A stretch of 41,898 nt of DNA from Thermodesulfovibrio sp. (GTDB lineage: Bacteria > Nitrospirota > Thermodesulfovibrionia > Thermodesulfovibrionales > Thermodesulfovibrionaceae). The stretch is taken from NCBI GenBank assembly GCA_025060075.1, contig JANXCZ010000018.1, forward strand, positions 1 through 41,898, in the 5' to 3' direction. The position numbers were made by a program, and so were the translations under genes. Shown one piece after another: positions 31,385 through 40,727 of this stretch (positions are counted from its first letter, which is position 1; each line of letters begins with the position of its first letter). The notes beneath the pieces are model-generated. The model had not been told where the DNA came from and made no database searches. It worked only from the letters and a program-made list of their open reading frames with translations.

Positions 31385-32053
31385 TTACTTTTCTTCTAAT
31401 ATTTCTCTAATCTTCCTCACAAGAATTTTGAAATTCTCCTTCATATAATATCTTCTCCACTCTAAATCAAGTATTGAGCCAAGTTTGACGGAGTAATCAC
31501 TCTTTGAGAAAGCCTCTATACCCTTGAGCAACCCTAATAAATCCTCCTTTTTTGCGTGAATTTCAATACCCTTTTTTAATAAAAACTCTATGTCAAAGAC
31601 ATCTCTAATTTCTCTCCTACTTAGAAATGCCTCTATTTTTGATTTCATAACTTCTTCAAGCGATAGAGTTCTTACAAGAACCTGTATGTTTGAGTATTTG
31701 CTATAGGCAATGGAAAATTCGGTTTTTACTTTTTCTATCTTTTTTCTTATCTCAATTTTTAGTGTCCTTGGATAATCCTTTGACTTTATCTCAAAAAGCA
31801 TTGTGTAAAATTTATTCTCTGCATCACGAACAGAATAATGCCTTAAAAAAAATTCCTTTAATCTGCTGAAATATCTCTCTATATCAACTTCTCTATAAAA
31901 CCAAAAATCAAGGTCAATGGAAAACCTATTGAGTCCATAACAAAGTCTTAGCATTGTTCCTCCAGTAAAAATGAGACTGTCAAGGAATTTTCCACTTTTA
32001 AGTCTATCTAAAACCTCTATCTCAAACTGCTCCTGTTTGACTAAATCTTGCAT
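31385..32053 (-). CDS. AbiEii/AbiGii family nucleotidyltransferase toxin
   Basis: A 222-residue nucleotidyltransferase-fold toxin of type IV toxin-antitoxin (AbiE) systems, which can give phage abortive infection. The motif FTGGTMLRL (GGT 31-33) and the metal-binding pair in FSIDLDF (D47, D49) are intact, followed by RTLKIEIRK and the SLEEVMKSKIEAFLSRREIRD helix region. Members studied add nucleotides to tRNA acceptor ends or GTP-bind; which applies here is unknown. Its 5' end overlaps the AbiEi-like gene by 13 bp, as usual for this pair. Confidence 0.88.
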   Translation of the reverse strand: MQDLVKQEQFEIEVLDRLKSGKFLDSLIFTGGTMLRLCYGLNRFSIDLDFWFYREVDIERYFSRLKEFFLRHYSVRDAENKFYTMLFEIKSKDYPRTLKIEIRKKIEKVKTEFSIAYSKYSNIQVLVRTLSLEEVMKSKIEAFLSRREIRDVFDIEFLLKKGIEIHAKKEDLLGLLKGIEAFSKSDYSVKLGSILDLEWRRYYMKENFKILVRKIREILEEK

Positions 32054-32628
32054 ATTCTCTCAAACAGTCTTTTTGTTTTTTCAGGGAACTTTTTAATAAG
32101 GCTTTTTATCCTTTTAATATCAAGTTTTCCTATGTCAATTGAATCAATATCAAAAGCATATTTACCAAAAGAATATAGATATATTGCATCAATAAAAGCT
32201 TTCTCTTTTGAAGCTATAAAGAAATCTCTCTCCTTTATAAAATCAAAGTAAATTTCTTTCTTTAGCTTGTAAAAATTAAATTTCACCCCTTCAATTTCAA
32301 TTCTTTCGGTCCTTTTAATACAAACCGACTCAAAATAGTCCCTTTGCACTTGAGTTGTCACTTCATAAAAGGAAAGAGCTGTCATTAGTGAAATATAAGA
32401 TGGCACTTGAAGCATATTTGAAATCTTATAAAAGTCCTGTATAGAGTTTCTCTGCCATCTGTCTTTCAATATGTAGAAGTCTTTTTTAAGCCTTATAAAG
32501 ATTCCTTTTTTAACATATCTTGAACAAAAAACCTTCGCAGATTTTTCCTTTATTTCAAGAAGTTGAGCAACATCATTGTAGTTAAAATAGAGTTTGTCCT
32601 CTAAATCTTTGATTTTTAGATATTTCAT
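32041..32628 (-). CDS. AbiEi-like antitoxin / transcriptional regulator
   Basis: A 195-residue partner of the AbiEii toxin. The N-terminal ~75 residues form a winged-helix domain (YFNYNDVAQLLEIKEKSAKV; YVKKGIFIRLKKDFYIL). The rest resembles the AbiEi antitoxin domain (SYISLMTALSFYEV; KEKAFIDAIYLYSFGK). Characterised AbiEi proteins repress their own promoter by binding inverted repeats; a perfect inverted repeat lies in this gene's promoter. No Shine-Dalgarno sequence precedes the ATG. Confidence 0.82.
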   Translation of the reverse strand: MKYLKIKDLEDKLYFNYNDVAQLLEIKEKSAKVFCSRYVKKGIFIRLKKDFYILKDRWQRNSIQDFYKISNMLQVPSYISLMTALSFYEVTTQVQRDYFESVCIKRTERIEIEGVKFNFYKLKKEIYFDFIKERDFFIASKEKAFIDAIYLYSFGKYAFDIDSIDIGKLDIKRIKSLIKKFPEKTKRLFERICKI

Positions 32629-34427: not shown

Positions 34428-34457
34428 TTGACATAAACTTTTGTTTTATGTTTTAAT
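34428..34457 (+). promoter_or_regulatory. promoter of the TonB receptor / ABC importer leader
   Basis: TTGACA (34428-34433), 18 bp, TTTAAT (34452-34457). The predicted start near 34464 coincides with the first base of the first leader hairpin, leaving a ~190 nt leader before the receptor ATG. Confidence 0.55.
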
Positions 34458-34463
34458 TTTTTA

Positions 34464-34522
34464 ACCCACGAAGGGTAGGTTAGGTCACGAAGGCCGTGGA
34501 ATAGTTATTCCACGGCTTTTTT
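34464..34522 (+). ncRNA. candidate cis-regulatory RNA: two ACGAA-capped hairpins plus terminator
   Basis: Two small hairpins with the same loop: ACCC-ACGAA-GGGT (34464-34476) and GGTC-ACGAA-GGCC (34483-34495), 6 nt apart. The 3' arm of the second shares bases 34493-34495 with the terminator stem, so they are mutually exclusive. CCACG in the first can also pair with CGTGG of the terminator's left arm. That is the layout of a transcription attenuator or riboswitch upstream of an uptake operon. It is not a cobalamin riboswitch that I can recognise. Tandem ACGA loops recall the guanidine-II (mini-ykkC) form, but the downstream genes do not fit. Confidence 0.5.
34493..34522 (+). terminator. rho-independent terminator in the receptor leader
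   Basis: A perfect 10-bp stem GCCGTGGAAT / ATTCCACGGC with loop AGTT (34493-34516), followed by six T. It sits 132 bp before the receptor ATG and downstream of the receptor's own promoter, so it must act conditionally. Confidence 0.85.
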
Positions 34523-34654
34523 ATGAATCAGACTCATGAAGAGTCTCAAACCTTCCTGAAGGAAGTTGAAGATTTATATATAGGGAGGTGAGAGACTATA
34601 TCATTTCTATGTTCTATTAAAAACTTATGAAATTTTTAATCAGAGGAGGAAAAC

Positions 34655-36664
34655 ATGCAGATACTTATATTTTTCATTTTAATAAGTTTGATATTTACTA
34701 ACTATGCCTACTCTGAGAATAAAAAGGAAGATTTTAAGTTTCCAGAAATTACCGTAACAGAGGCTAAGATTGAAGAAAAACCTCAAGAGCAGACTCATAA
34801 AATTGATGTTATTGATAAAAAGGAAATTGAAAATATAAATCTTCCAAATAGAAATCTATCAGAGTTGATAAGATATCTTCCTGGCAATTTTGTTAATCCC
34901 CTTTCTCGTAATGATGCAAATTGGGGTTCTTATGGAGGTTTAAGACCTAAGTATAATAGTTGGTTACTTGATGGACTTCCAATTGACTCCTTTGTTGATC
35001 CAATGAGTCTTGATTCTATATATCTTGATAGAATTGAGGTTCACAGAGGACCTGCGTCAGTCTTATATCCCAATTATATGACTATGGATTTTGCAGGTAA
35101 TTTGACTCCACTGGCAGGAATAACGAATTTAATAACAAAAGAAAAAATAGAAAAACCTTTTACAAATATCTCTCTTGGTTATGGAACATGGAATACAATA
35201 AATGCAAGGATTTATCATGAAGGAAATGCAGGACCATTTAATTTCTTTTTAGGTGCAAATTATGAGCAGTCAGATTATACAAACTACGGTACAAAACCTT
35301 CATGGTTAAATATGATAGATGATCCTGAATATAAAAAATTTAAAGGATACTTCAAAACTACATACTTTTTTACTCCTGAGACTAAAATTTCTCTATTTGC
35401 TCATCACACAAAGCATGATGGAGATACTGGGAGACCTCATAGAGGATATGATCATCAATATGATGTGATAAATTTGATCTTTACTTCGCCTCTTTCTAAG
35501 GATTTCATCTTAAATGCAAAGGCAGGATATAGATACTATCATCGCTCATGGGAAGAAGATAACTATCCTACTAGTCTAAGTCTAAGAGAAAAAGATGGAG
35601 TAAAACAAAATATTTATCCTATTGATATATCAGTCAATTATAAACATTTAGGCAAAAGCGTTCTAACAGCAGGTGTTGATGCTCAGTATTCAACCTATAA
35701 AACTTATGCTAATGTAGGAGGAAATACAACTATTGGAAACGATGTTAAGGCAAAAAGTTTTGGTGTCTATGCTCAAGAAAAATTAATATTTGATAAATGG
35801 GTCTTAAGAGCCGGATTAAGATACAGTTATACAAAGCACAACTACGATAAACTTGGTGGAGTTGAACCAGACATTTCCTCAAAATCATGGGATCAGCTAA
35901 TATGGACAGCTGGAGTAAGATATAACTTTACCGATACTTTCGGTATATTTGCCAATGCAGGTTCAAGTTATCTTGTTCCTTCTGCAAAATCAGTTGGTGG
36001 AACTCTTAAGGAGTCAGACAGAGGAGTCCCTAACAAGAATGGTCAGTTACCTAATCCGAATCTAAAGCCTGAGAAGGGTTATAGTTTTGATCTTGGTGCA
36101 GATCTATGGGCTTTGAGTAATCTATATTTTAGTCTAAGAGGATTTTATCATATAACAAAAGATACGATAGTGGAAAATGTTGTAAGCTTAACTCCGTCTC
36201 AGACTCAATCAGTCAATGCAGGTAAAGCCTATACTAAAGGAGTAGAATTTGAGGTTCAGCATTTTATCTCAAATAAAGCTAAGTGGTTTGCTAACTTTAC
36301 AATAACTGATACTGAAGTAAAAAATCCTATTGATGAAAACCACGATGGAAGCGACATACCTTTTGTTCCGAAATTCATAGCAAATGCTGGATTTACAGCC
36401 AATCTTCCATATGGATTCACAGTTTCTCCCTATTTACAATTTGTTGGCAAATACTACGATAGCACTGATAAGACTAATAGAAGAGATTTTGGAGATTATG
36501 TCACAGTAAATCTAAATATTAGGAAAGAGCTTTTTAGAACAGAAAAATACTATTCCACTCTAATTCTTGAATTAAACAATATTACTAATAAAAAATATGA
36601 AATGCCTTGGCAGTTCCAAGACCCTGGCTTTAATGCGATGTTAAGATGGGAGTTAAGTTTCTAA
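34655..36664 (+). CDS. TonB-dependent outer membrane receptor
   Basis: A 669-residue receptor. It has a signal peptide (MQILIFFILISLIFTNYAYS), a TonB box-like PEITVTEA, a plug domain (NLSELIRYLPGNFV; YNSWLLDGLPIDSF; LDRIEVHRGPASVLY) and a 22-strand-type beta-barrel ending in the outer-membrane signal ...MLRWELSF with terminal Phe. Shine-Dalgarno AGAGGAGG is strong. With the FecBCD-type importer behind it, it takes up a chelated metal, heme, cobalamin or siderophore; the ligand is not evident. TonB/ExbBD are not in the window. Expression is probably controlled by the leader attenuator. Confidence 0.93.
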   Translation: MQILIFFILISLIFTNYAYSENKKEDFKFPEITVTEAKIEEKPQEQTHKIDVIDKKEIENINLPNRNLSELIRYLPGNFVNPLSRNDANWGSYGGLRPKYNSWLLDGLPIDSFVDPMSLDSIYLDRIEVHRGPASVLYPNYMTMDFAGNLTPLAGITNLITKEKIEKPFTNISLGYGTWNTINARIYHEGNAGPFNFFLGANYEQSDYTNYGTKPSWLNMIDDPEYKKFKGYFKTTYFFTPETKISLFAHHTKHDGDTGRPHRGYDHQYDVINLIFTSPLSKDFILNAKAGYRYYHRSWEEDNYPTSLSLREKDGVKQNIYPIDISVNYKHLGKSVLTAGVDAQYSTYKTYANVGGNTTIGNDVKAKSFGVYAQEKLIFDKWVLRAGLRYSYTKHNYDKLGGVEPDISSKSWDQLIWTAGVRYNFTDTFGIFANAGSSYLVPSAKSVGGTLKESDRGVPNKNGQLPNPNLKPEKGYSFDLGADLWALSNLYFSLRGFYHITKDTIVENVVSLTPSQTQSVNAGKAYTKGVEFEVQHFISNKAKWFANFTITDTEVKNPIDENHDGSDIPFVPKFIANAGFTANLPYGFTVSPYLQFVGKYYDSTDKTNRRDFGDYVTVNLNIRKELFRTEKYYSTLILELNNITNKKYEMPWQFQDPGFNAMLRWELSF

Positions 36665-36670
36665 AGAATA

Positions 36671-36699
36671 AAGGGAGCAGAGATCTCTGCTCCCTTTTG
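36671..36699 (+). terminator. palindromic intercistronic terminator between receptor and ABC genes
   Basis: A perfect 26-bp palindrome (36671-36696; arms AAGGGAGCAGAGA / TCTCTGCTCCCTT) followed by T's, starting 7 bp after the receptor stop codon. It likely lowers transcription into the importer genes. Confidence 0.8.
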
Positions 36700-37698
36700 A
36701 TAAAATTAATCCAAACTATTTTAATTTTTATAATATTATTTTCTTTTTATATAGATATTGCTAATGCTCAAATCGTAGTTAAGGATTTTAGAGGGAAAAT
36801 CATACATTTAGACAAACCGGTAGAGAGAGTTGTATGTTTAATTGAAAGTGCTCTAACAGGAATATATATGTTAAAGCAGGGTCATAAAGTTGTTGGAATT
36901 CCTACGAATGTTTACACTGAAGGCTTCTATTACAGTGATACCTTCAAGTACTATGCTCTTTTAGATGAAAGAATAAGAGAGAAAAAAATACCTGCCGTAG
37001 GTAATTGGGAGTTCGTAAATGTTGAAAAGGTCTTATCTCTTAAACCAGACTTGATAATAATCTGGGCAAATCAAAGAGATACAATTGAAATATTAGAGAG
37101 ATTAGGAATTCCTGTTTATGGAGTATTTATAACAAAAATTGATGATATCCTAAAGGAGATTAGAGATTTTGGAATACTTTTTAATGCTAAAAAAAGAGCA
37201 GAAGAATTAATCAGATACATAAAAGAGGAAATTAGAAAAATTGAGGAAATAGCAAAAAAAATTAAGTCAAAAAAGAGGATTTATTTTAGCTGGGCACAAC
37301 ATAGTTTTCTTCAGACCTCGTGTGGAGGAAGTATAGTTGATGAAATCATAAATACTATTGGAGCAATAAATGTTTGCGGTAACATTAAAGCTGAATCACA
37401 AAATTTAACTATGGAGAAATTAATTTTATTAAATCCAGATATTATTATAATGTGGTATAGTAAGACCCTTAAGTCAGAAAATATCAAGAAAAATAAACAA
37501 TATAAGATAATTAATGCTATTAAGAATAAGGCTGTTTATCAATTTGATGATACTTTTTTCTTTGATCTTTGGACGCTGAAGTTTTTGTACTCAATGAAAT
37601 TTATAGCAAAGGTGAGTTATCCAGAGTATTACAAATTTGAATTAGCAAAAGAAAAACAAAGAATTATGCGTCTTCTGTATGATAAAGATTTAATATAA
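36697..37698 (+). CDS. ABC importer periplasmic substrate-binding protein (BtuF/FecB type)
   Basis: Periplasmic binding protein of the cobalamin/Fe3+-siderophore class: ERVVCLIESALTGIYML, VGNWEFVNVEKVLSLKPDLI, and the long central helix (AEELIRYIKEEIRKIEEI) linking two lobes, then ENLTM-like and KLILLNPDIII. A signal peptide (hydrophobic ILIFIILFSFYID, cleavage after ANA) is present without a lipobox. The frame is open from an ATG at 36646 inside the receptor, but that would translate the terminator palindrome. I chose TTG 36697, which begins exactly before the signal peptide; the true start is uncertain. It delivers the receptor's ligand to the permease. Confidence 0.85.
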   Translation: MIKLIQTILIFIILFSFYIDIANAQIVVKDFRGKIIHLDKPVERVVCLIESALTGIYMLKQGHKVVGIPTNVYTEGFYYSDTFKYYALLDERIREKKIPAVGNWEFVNVEKVLSLKPDLIIIWANQRDTIEILERLGIPVYGVFITKIDDILKEIRDFGILFNAKKRAEELIRYIKEEIRKIEEIAKKIKSKKRIYFSWAQHSFLQTSCGGSIVDEIINTIGAINVCGNIKAESQNLTMEKLILLNPDIIIMWYSKTLKSENIKKNKQYKIINAIKNKAVYQFDDTFFFDLWTLKFLYSMKFIAKVSYPEYYKFELAKEKQRIMRLLYDKDLI

Positions 37699-37742: not shown

Positions 37743-38750
37743 ATGATTGTAAAAAAGTTTAAACTTTTTTTTATACTAATCTCTCCATTTGTTATTGCAT
37801 GGATTGCTCTTTTTTTAGGTACATACGAAGTTACTCCTCTTATGATAATTAAGATTTTACTAAATGAGATTTTCCATGTTTTTGATATAGGAGATATTTC
37901 TGAAAAATCTATAATTATTGATATAAGACTACCAAGAGTTATTCTTGCTGGAATTGTTGGAGCAGCTCTTTCTTGTGCTGGAGTTACACTTCAGGGAATA
38001 TTCCGTAATCCTCTTGTTGATCCATTTATACTTGGCATATCGGCTGGAGCTGCCTTTGGATGTGCTGTAACATTGGGATTTTTAACTTTTCTTCCTATAC
38101 AGTTAATGGCTTTTGTTTTTGCTATACTTTCAGTGATGATTGCCTATGGAGTTGCTAAAACTCAAGGAGAAGTCTCTCGCCTCTCCTTAATCCTCTCTGG
38201 AGTCATAGTTTCAGCTTTTTTTACTGCAATGGTATCAATAATTAAGTTTTTGGTTGATCCTCATAGACTTCAAAGTATTGTTTACTGGCTTATGGGAAGT
38301 TTTAGTCTTGCTGACTGGAAGGCAGTAAAAATAGCGGTGGCTGGAGTTTTAGTTGGAGTGCTTCCGATCTTTCTTATGCGATGGAGACTAAATGTAATGA
38401 GCATGGGAGAAGAGGAGGCAAAAGTTTTAGGAGTAAATATAAGAAAAGAGAAGTTTCTTTTCATAGGATTTTCAACTTTTGCTGTAGCAGTATCTACATC
38501 TTTGTGCGGAATTATCGGCTGGGTAGGACTTATGGCTCCTCATCTTGTAAGAATGCTTGTAGGACCTGACCATAAAACTCTTGTACCACTTAGCATTTCA
38601 GCAGGTGCAGCATTTATGATTTTAGCAGATACTATTTCAAGAACTCTTACAAGCTTTGACATTCCAGTTGGAATTGTAACTGCAATTATTGGTGCACCCT
38701 TTTTTATATATCTTATGAAACGTAGCGGTAAAGAGGCATGGAGTAAATAA
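37743..38750 (+). CDS. FecCD/BtuC-family ABC importer permease
   Basis: A 335-residue membrane permease with about ten helices. Family motifs: IRLPRVILAGIVGAALSCAG, VTLQGIFRNPLVDPFILGIS, the cytoplasmic coupling segment LGVNIRKEK and GWVGLMAPHLVRMLVGPDH. It exchanges the chelate between binding protein and cytoplasm. The stop codon overlaps the ATPase start by 1 bp (TAATG). Confidence 0.94.
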   Translation: MIVKKFKLFFILISPFVIAWIALFLGTYEVTPLMIIKILLNEIFHVFDIGDISEKSIIIDIRLPRVILAGIVGAALSCAGVTLQGIFRNPLVDPFILGISAGAAFGCAVTLGFLTFLPIQLMAFVFAILSVMIAYGVAKTQGEVSRLSLILSGVIVSAFFTAMVSIIKFLVDPHRLQSIVYWLMGSFSLADWKAVKIAVAGVLVGVLPIFLMRWRLNVMSMGEEEAKVLGVNIRKEKFLFIGFSTFAVAVSTSLCGIIGWVGLMAPHLVRMLVGPDHKTLVPLSISAGAAFMILADTISRTLTSFDIPVGIVTAIIGAPFFIYLMKRSGKEAWSK

Positions 38751-39520
38751 TGCTTACTGTCAGGAATATATATTTTAAGCATAAGGGTAAAGCCGAAGAT
38801 ACACTTAAAGGTATAGGTTTTAATGCCAAAAGAGGAAGTATAACCACAATTCTTGGTCCAAATGGCTCTGGAAAAACAACTCTATTTAAATGTATTTCAG
38901 GAGTATGGAAGTATTACAAAGGTGAGATTTATTTTGATGAAAAGGCTATTGACAAACTTTCATTTAGAAAAAGAGCGAGGATTTTCTCAGTAGTTCCACA
39001 GGAACATGAGCCTCCTTTTCCTTACTCAGTTTTTGATGTAGTATTAATGGGAAGAGCAAGCTATGTTAGAATCTTTTCTACACCAACCGAGAGGGATTAT
39101 GAAATTGCACAGGAGGCAATTAAAACACTGGGAATTGAGCATTTAAAAGAAACACCCTATACCAAAATAAGCGGAGGAGAGCGTCAATTAACACTTATTG
39201 CAAGAGCATTGGCGCAGGATGCACCAGTTATGCTTCTTGATGAACCAACAACTCATCTTGATTTTCGTAATCAGATAAAAGTGCTAAAAAAAATAAAAGA
39301 GATTGCAAAAGAAAAAGCATTGGTGGTTGTTATGACTCTTCATGACCCTAATCTTGCTGGACTTTTCTCAGATAAAATAGTTGTAATAAACTCCGGAAGA
39401 AAGATCGCAGAGGGCTTACCAGATGAGACTATTACCGAAGATTTGATTAGAAGAATTTACGATACTGAAGTAAAAAGAATAAATATCAATGGACAAAACA
39501 TAATTTATCCAGTCCTTTAA
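38750..39520 (+). CDS. ABC importer ATP-binding protein (BtuD/FhuC type)
   Basis: A 256-residue ABC ATPase. Walker A GPNGSGKTT, Q-loop VVPQEHEPPFPYSV, signature ISGGERQLTLIARALAQ, Walker B VMLLDEPTTHLD and switch TLHDPN are all intact. It powers the adjoining FecCD permease. It is the last gene of the uptake operon; no clear terminator follows in the 97 bp before the next gene. Confidence 0.95.
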   Translation: MLTVRNIYFKHKGKAEDTLKGIGFNAKRGSITTILGPNGSGKTTLFKCISGVWKYYKGEIYFDEKAIDKLSFRKRARIFSVVPQEHEPPFPYSVFDVVLMGRASYVRIFSTPTERDYEIAQEAIKTLGIEHLKETPYTKISGGERQLTLIARALAQDAPVMLLDEPTTHLDFRNQIKVLKKIKEIAKEKALVVVMTLHDPNLAGLFSDKIVVINSGRKIAEGLPDETITEDLIRRIYDTEVKRININGQNIIYPVL

Positions 39521-39617: not shown

Positions 39618-40727
39618 ATGATTAAAATACTCTTTTCAGAAAAGATTAAAGAGTATGATTTTGGAGTAGGACATCCCTTTAGAGGAAGTCGTTACAATAT
39701 ATTTTTTGATTTTTTAAAGAATAAGTTAAAACAAAGTATTGATTACGAAATTCTTGAAGCAGAGCCAGCCTCAGAAGAAGATTTACTTTTAATATGTTCG
39801 GAAAAATATATAAATTATGTAAAAAATTTTTATGAATTAGCCTATAGGGGAGAAATAAATTATATTGTAGCTCTTATAGGTAATTTTCTCAGTGTTGACA
39901 ACATTCCGGGAGAAAAGCCAGGAAATATTGAGATGGCTGCAAGATTTATTATTGGACAGATGAAAAAAGCATGCGATTTAGTTCAACAGGACAAACTCAA
40001 AAAGGTTATATCTATTGGTGGAGGGCTTCATCATGCAAAGCCATCTTATGGGGAAGGTTTCTGTGTTTACAATGATATAGCCTTCGGAGCTAAGTATTTG
40101 ATAGAGAAATATTCACTGAGAAAAATCTTAATTCTTGATACAGATGCTCATGGTGGAAATGGTACGATGGAGTATTTTTATGATGACCCAAGAGTTTTAT
40201 TTATAGATATACATCAGGATCCAAAAACAATCTATCCTGGAACAGGCTTTACATGGCAGATAGGAGAAGGGGAGGGAAGAGGTTTTACAGTTAACTGTCC
40301 TCTTAAGCCTGGTGCTTGCTGGGATTCTTATGAGTATATTTTTGAAAATATAGTTTTTCCTCTTGCTGAAGAGTACAAGCCAGAAATAATTATAAGATAT
40401 GGAGGATCAGACCCTTACTGGAACGATGCATTAACTTGTCTTGGACTTACAATTGCTGACTTTAAAAAAATAGGATATTATACAAAAGAATTAGCTAATC
40501 TTTGTGATGGTAAAGTTATAGATGCTATTGCCTCTGGATACAATGAGAAAGCAGTAGGTCCTGGCTGGCTTTCATTAATATGTGGATTGTATGGAATAGA
40601 AGTTGAAATAGAAGAACCAGAACCAGTTTCAAATAGAGTTAAAGATGATCCTGCATACGAATCAACAAAGATGATGGTAAAGGAACTCAAAGAATACCTT
40701 AAAAACTATTGGACTTGTATGAGATAG
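39618..40727 (+). CDS. histone deacetylase / acetoin-utilization (AcuC) family hydrolase
   Basis: A 369-residue enzyme of the deacetylase superfamily. Catalytic and zinc residues: GGGLHHAKPSYGEGFCVYND (His pair), LDTDAHGGNG (zinc Asp and His) and RYGGSDPYWND (third Asp region). Length matches AcuC-like proteins, longer than the 248-residue paralogue at 11964. Compared with classical HDACs the Tyr-containing GGY end is replaced by IASGYN. Substrate unknown; acetyl-CoA synthetase deacetylation (AcuC role) is one possibility. Confidence 0.85.
   Translation: MIKILFSEKIKEYDFGVGHPFRGSRYNIFFDFLKNKLKQSIDYEILEAEPASEEDLLLICSEKYINYVKNFYELAYRGEINYIVALIGNFLSVDNIPGEKPGNIEMAARFIIGQMKKACDLVQQDKLKKVISIGGGLHHAKPSYGEGFCVYNDIAFGAKYLIEKYSLRKILILDTDAHGGNGTMEYFYDDPRVLFIDIHQDPKTIYPGTGFTWQIGEGEGRGFTVNCPLKPGACWDSYEYIFENIVFPLAEEYKPEIIIRYGGSDPYWNDALTCLGLTIADFKKIGYYTKELANLCDGKVIDAIASGYNEKAVGPGWLSLICGLYGIEVEIEEPEPVSNRVKDDPAYESTKMMVKELKEYLKNYWTCMR

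Follow-up and report, generated by a model that had tools for sequence, protein, structure and literature searches.

Guanidine-II (mini-ykkC) riboswitches are two-hairpin RNAs that require ACGR loops pairing with each other. The NiCo (czcD) riboswitch is an RNA element linked to nickel and cobalt transport, and CsrA/RsmA reads GGA in its targets. ANTAR proteins such as EutV, NasR and AmiR act on leaders with two small hairpins carrying conserved loop bases, and stabilization of these hairpins leads to transcriptional read-through (PMC3369931, PMC8934654). The target loops comprise six bases with A1 and G4 (PMC3369931, PMC8934654). In delta-proteobacteria, nikMQO and nikKMLQO operons are under the control of NikR (PMC545781). 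Fewer than half of the organisms that have NikABCDE possess this regulator (PMC2667541).

Here, we describe a leader from Thermodesulfovibrio sp. at positions 34428-34654 of a stretch of 41,898 nucleotides (contig JANXCZ010000018.1), hereafter the window. Its tandem hairpin pair, with loops starting ACG in some copies, recalls guanidine-II. However, the present loops take any second base, include NGAA tetraloops and have no Rfam match, mini-ykkC included, in agreement with the earlier note on this DNA, which had called the resemblance superficial. Like CsrA/RsmA targets, the leaders contain several hairpins with ANGNA-like loops, but these carry GAA rather than the required GGA; a CsrA-bound leader was rejected accordingly. 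The NiCo riboswitch is a four-way-junction RNA that turns on exporters, whereas the present leaders serve importers. The layout corresponds to that of ANTAR leaders, in which the second hairpin likewise overlaps the intrinsic terminator. Nevertheless, those leaders have hexaloops while the present loops have five (ANGAA) or four (NGAA) bases, and the present leaders precede genes for metal uptake. Moreover, no ANTAR protein was detected in 16 genomes of the genus and such proteins were nearly absent from the order, although the same model matched 117 of 296 Nitrospirota genomes. An ANTAR dual-hexaloop target was rejected based on the loops and the lack of an ANTAR protein in the genus. Finally, the target genes are of the same kind as those of the NikR-controlled nikMQO and nikKMLQO operons, in the same phylum (PMC545781), but NikR is a DNA-binding repressor and most genomes with the leader lack it. 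Based on the sequence comparisons below, we consider it fairly probable that the leader belongs to an uncatalogued family of attenuators for the uptake of nickel, or of nickel and cobalt, that is switched by a putative trans-acting factor.

The leader and its operon

Direct reading of the window located every element that had been reported for the leader, namely the promoter, hairpins H1 to H4 and a terminator overlapping H2, with all coordinates matching. The features are as follows:

34428-34433 and 34452-34457, + strand: promoter with -35 element TTGACA, 18-nt spacer and -10 element TTTAAT (from sequence; predicted start)
34464-34476, + strand: hairpin H1, ACCC-ACGAA-GGGT, loop ANGAA (from sequence; paired in 21/21 copies)
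34483-34495, + strand: putative antiterminator hairpin H2, GGTC-ACGAA-GGCC, loop AYGAA (from sequence; stem invariant in 21/21 copies)
34493-34522, + strand: intrinsic terminator, 10-bp stem at 34493-34516 and T6 at 34517-34522 (from sequence and folding)
34530-34546, + strand: hairpin H3, AGACTC-ATGAA-GAGTCT, 3' of the terminator (paired in 21/21 copies)
34552-34565, + strand: hairpin H4, CTTCC-TGAA-GGAAG (94% of cells paired; double-sided change at one pair)
34523-34591: 22-codon frame (from sequence)
34642-34649, + strand: ribosome-binding site AGAGGAGG of the receptor gene (from sequence)
34655-36664, + strand: TonB-dependent receptor, first controlled gene (Pfam PF00593, PF07715)
36646-37698, + strand: FecB/BtuF-like periplasmic binding protein (Pfam PF01497)
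37743-38750, + strand: FecCD-family permease (Pfam PF01032)
38750-39520, + strand: ABC ATPase of the same transporter as the permease (Pfam PF00005)

The 3' arm of H2 is the beginning of the terminator stem, bases 34493-34495 being common to both. Because there is no same-strand gene just upstream, the terminator appears to serve the TTGACA/TTTAAT promoter. Two further features of the window were noted by eye. A histone-deacetylase-like protein is encoded on the same strand after the transporter genes (39618-40727) and may belong to the operon, and two adjoining minus-strand genes at 31385-32628 resemble an AbiEii-AbiEi toxin-antitoxin pair.

At the gathering level, Rfam 15 matched only tRNAs in the window. 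Lowering the stringency to E values up to 10 over the leader revealed nothing convincing. In twenty loci, nearly all with related leaders, the only matches were tRNAs and one separate cobalamin riboswitch, and none lay at a leader. These searches bear out the earlier view that the leader falls outside known riboswitch classes; a NiCo or cobalamin riboswitch was rejected as neither model matched at the leader. No description of the motif was found in the open-access literature.

Folding of the leader

The 221-nt leader had a folding z-score of -4.5. For a 60-nt stretch, the z-score was -4.6 and none of the shuffled sequences was equally stable. The predicted energy of the terminator fold was -25.9 kcal/mol versus -9.6 kcal/mol for the fold containing H1 and H2. 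As the former is much favoured, the RNA should terminate without help. The locus has the order of a terminator-type attenuator, promoter, intrinsic terminator and gene, together with an alternative fold that excludes the terminator and is conserved in relatives. The proposal of a conditional terminator in the leader of a TonB-receptor uptake operon is thus upheld, at the level of sequence, by exclusive folds that are conserved and covary.

Copies within the genus

The genome of the window contains a second copy of the leader, and BLAST searches of 61 genomes recovered copies in 14, every one from Thermodesulfovibrio. All 21 well-aligned copies sit before genes for TonB-dependent receptors of several subfamilies, and nearly all retain TTGAC and TTTAAT upstream of H1. 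The stem of H2 is invariant across the 21 copies, its U-G pair included, and the terminator has changes on both sides at four of its pairs. The covariation score of the 21 copies exceeded those of all 500 shuffles, which is supportive but is not a probability since the sequences are related. Collecting homologous leaders to look for covariation, as had been suggested, thus yielded conserved and covarying leaders. Two other suggestions failed. Pairing of CCACG in H1 with CGTGG of the terminator is possible in only 12 of the 21 copies and impossible in nine. Similarly, the 22-codon frame is not conserved, ranging from 2 to 45 codons in relatives with its ATG missing in several; a leader-peptide attenuator was rejected on this basis. 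Use of the loop sequence ATGAAG as a start codon was also rejected, as AC or AA replaces AT in other loops.

Two copies depart from this pattern. At L036:6906-7026 (genome G001), H2, the terminator, H3 and H4 are kept while H1 and the promoter region differ, as if recombined. Locus L069 (G013:C7:45216-45322) is a decayed copy with a broken terminator before an apparent receptor pseudogene.

The wider family

A covariance model was built from the genus leaders and used to seek weaker relatives. Weaker matches within the genus followed the same logic, occurring before TonB genes, before methyltransferases followed by receptors, and before other receptors. The model also detected a full-length relative outside the family of the genus (G298). 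A second search used the pattern of H2 plus terminator, and its first version detected Desulfobacterota leaders that precede CbiM-CbiQ-CbiO operons, DUF4198 genes and receptors. With a looser pattern, 395 Desulfobacterota genomes yielded 66 matches versus none for the reversed control. Of 30 Desulfobacterota matches examined as loci, about half were leaders and half were chance matches in coding sequence, which were dropped. In Nitrospirota, the looser pattern matched in 51 of 396 genomes, from 30 genera, the reversed control giving six matches; those that are real leaders fall nearly all within the Thermodesulfovibrio class. Matches in Pseudomonas, Ensifer, Methylobacterium, Sulfitobacter, Treponema, Bacillota and Pirellulales were coding or unrelated and were dropped.

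The module common to these leaders, of which there are about 60 non-redundant examples in Nitrospirota and Desulfobacterota, consists of hairpins whose (A)NGAA loops have a C-G closing pair; one of the hairpins is exclusive with the terminator. The kept set comprised 63 non-redundant leaders (one locus counted twice) in two wirings: 19 of type A and 44 of type B. In type A, that of the window, the terminator starts within the 3' arm of H2, and the H2 loop is invariant save for one base although it lies outside the main stem of the terminator. In type B, which occurs in both phyla, the sequence of H2 is GCC-AYGAA-GGC, whose 5' arm and loop form pairs with the 3' strand of the terminator. The loop base Y and its terminator partner change jointly in type B (U-A in 32, U-G in 8 and C-G in 4). 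In either wiring, H2 and the terminator cannot coexist. Outside the genus, the conservation of H2 is partly a product of the search pattern.

NGAA hairpins adjoining H2 were no part of the search, and yet they recurred. In 70 leaders, 19 were present inside the terminator loop and 22 upstream, versus 0.17 and 0.24, respectively, in shuffled sequences. From the second pair on, the stems of these extra hairpins are variable. The catalogue was selected for GAA and the C-G closing pair, whereas neither the stem variation nor the excess over shuffles entered into the selection. Loops vary in some leaders, to NGNA and longer, and no second strict NGAA hairpin was found in some of the 70. In genome G002 (2.00 Mb), nine tandem pairs of NGAA hairpins occur at five loci, all intergenic, in a sequence of which 90.6% was called as gene. 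Genome-wide, single ANGAA hairpins showed no clear enrichment in G002, the signal being confined to tandem pairs, and a strict scan of this genome for terminators overlapped by NGAA hairpins returned one match.

It is conceivable that the promoter, H1, H2 and terminator of the window instead specify a free small RNA, with the receptor gene transcribed from its own downstream start, or that the GAA loops serve as pairing sites for an RNA containing UUC repeats. The promoter and terminator do bound a transcript of about 60 nt, and GAA(G) is common to all loops. We nevertheless regard these possibilities as highly improbable. The module always lies before uptake genes, occurs in many variants and, in both of its wirings, makes H2 and the terminator mutually exclusive; together, this argues for action in cis. 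Further, H3 and H4, beyond the terminator, are also conserved, and no promoter-like match was found on the + strand between the terminator and the receptor gene.

Genes under the leaders

Downstream genes played no part in the search for leaders. Nevertheless, components of nickel/cobalt or TonB uptake lie downstream of about 57 of 60 leaders, based on translations read by eye and Pfam searches of representatives. These include CbiM/NikM transporter operons, DUF4198 (NikK-like) proteins, TonB, ExbB/D, TonB-dependent receptors and a receptor-linked methyltransferase. The target genes are thus nickel/cobalt uptake genes, as in a nickel regulon. One of the tandem-pair loci of G002 heads an operon encoding an OprB-like porin, DUF4198, CbiM, and CbiQ-like and CbiO-like proteins. 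At L299, the arrangement of receptor and binding protein found in the window occurs under a type B leader. The motif also marks likely metal-uptake genes, among them those for the receptor-paired methyltransferase and OprB-like porins as well as for an FmdE protein and a small histidine-rich protein.

The methyltransferase (MIATEIKKISYWNEY... type) was repeatedly the first gene under a leader (L182, L184, L190, L250, L251, L275, L279, L280 and L310), often with a TonB receptor next. At L263 and on the + strand of L257, leaders precede an FmdE-family gene and a tetrapyrrole-methylase-like gene, which are possible new members of a metal regulon. At L288 and L290, the gene following the leader encodes a histidine-containing protein of 70 aa (MDEFEKLKILLIHWVEHNDEHAEVYRNW...), for which Pfam gave no match. 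About 0.8 kb upstream of a leader preceding ExbB, and on its strand, there is a cobalamin riboswitch (L252:2132-2319), which suggests that cobalamin and nickel control are separate there, side by side.

NikR and the identity of the signal

Operons of the same kind are NikR-controlled (PMC545781), and so the leaders could replace NikR if they do the same job. Within the order, the leader occurred in none of 27 genomes with NikR versus 36 of 107 others (p=1.3e-4; strict pattern, shared ancestry ignored). In Desulfobacterota, NikR was detected in 2 of 29 genomes with a leader versus 24 of 51 without a pattern match (p=1.6e-4; strict pattern, shared ancestry ignored; one of the 24 was a weak NikR match). 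These figures are strong hints that leader and NikR avoid each other in two phyla, with shared ancestry as a confounder of this avoidance. NikR is missing from many organisms that possess nickel transporters. In two phyla, home to many sulphate reducers, the leader would provide a concrete answer, at the level of RNA, to how uptake is regulated.

Gene content alone cannot separate cobalt from nickel. CbiM-type transporters carry either metal, and NCBIfam names the CbiM-type proteins cobalt transporters, albeit below its cut-offs. In addition, a CobN-like gene recurs beside receptor operons of the genus, and the ABC subunits of the window weakly resemble BtuC/BtuF. A signal of cobalt or a corrinoid, or of general TonB-system demand, is therefore possible but seems to us rather doubtful given the avoidance of NikR genomes in two phyla, the DUF4198/NikK-type partners, which belong to nickel operons (PMC545781), and the separate site of the sole cobalamin riboswitch among 20 loci.

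Proposed mechanism

The exclusive folds, their conservation and covariation, and the recurrence of the hairpins were established computationally, as were the links to nickel/cobalt-TonB genes and to the absence of NikR. The protein nature of the factor, nickel as the signal and the direction of regulation are our inferences. The nascent RNA would by default adopt the terminator fold, and transcription would halt ahead of the uptake gene. Under metal scarcity, a putative trans-acting factor, probably an RNA-binding protein, would grip the tandem hairpins, whose (A)NGAA loops have a C-G closing pair. With H2 held as a hairpin, the terminator would be deprived of bases that it needs and RNA polymerase would read through. 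When the metal is replete, the factor would release the RNA and uptake would be shut off.

This direction follows from the location of the conserved bases. Because the conserved loops belong to the ON fold, and because the H2 loop is near-invariant outside the main stem of the terminator, something presumably recognizes the ON fold. As the controlled gene is an uptake gene, the recognizer should act when the metal is scarce, which favours a trans-acting antiterminator that metal releases or inactivates over a simple metal riboswitch. A true riboswitch, with the tandem NGAA hairpins acting without a protein as the direct receptor of a small molecule or ion, appears unlikely. Such a device would suit a compact conserved RNA occurring in two phyla with no known shared regulator protein, and two-hairpin riboswitches exist, guanidine-II being one. 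However, direct binding of metal to the conserved bases of the ON fold would turn uptake on when metal is plentiful; the ligand of that fold would need to build up during nickel shortage, unless the metal acted on the terminator fold instead. Furthermore, in L284-L287, H2 is preceded by only about 20 nt of leader, too little to accommodate a separate sensing domain, the 3-5 bp hairpins are weak compared with the strong terminator, and Rfam riboswitch models found no match. The earlier proposal that the ligand is the imported metal chelate thus fares unevenly: the guess of a metal fits the nickel/cobalt genes, but a riboswitch binding the chelate directly is unsupported, as the conserved hairpins form the ON conformer.

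There is roughly an even chance that an undiscovered nickel-responsive RNA-binding antiterminator stands in for NikR in much of the Thermodesulfovibrio class and in parts of Desulfobacterota, jointly controlling the outer-membrane receptor, the TonB/ExbB energizer and the inner-membrane NikM-type transporter via transcription termination. A new class of RNA-binding metal sensor may be waiting behind the loop code (A)NGAA closed by C-G. In the receptor leaders of the genus, H3 and H4 may, at a guess, hold the same factor on the read-through RNA.

Clustering of the genes around the leaders revealed no recurrent unknown regulator. Two candidate partners were considered and set aside. CsrA is ordinary, with one gene per genome where found, and the loops carry GAA; a NusG paralog is unsupported, as the extra NusG of G002 lies in a sugar-nucleotide cluster.

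Finally, some hairpin arrays occur without a terminator. At L066:1501-1587 (G006) and G002:C1:1393725-1393767, three tandem ATGAA-loop hairpins directly precede a small gene (MIKKLSSKSMPTCKC..., MIKKVSGKPMP...), and these sites are perhaps a translational version of the leader control. At G002:C1:1660012-1660075, three GAA-loop hairpins (AGGAA, CTGAA or TGAA, and CGAA), likewise with no terminator, precede an MvhD-like gene whose product reads like a heterodisulfide-reductase/hydrogenase delta subunit.
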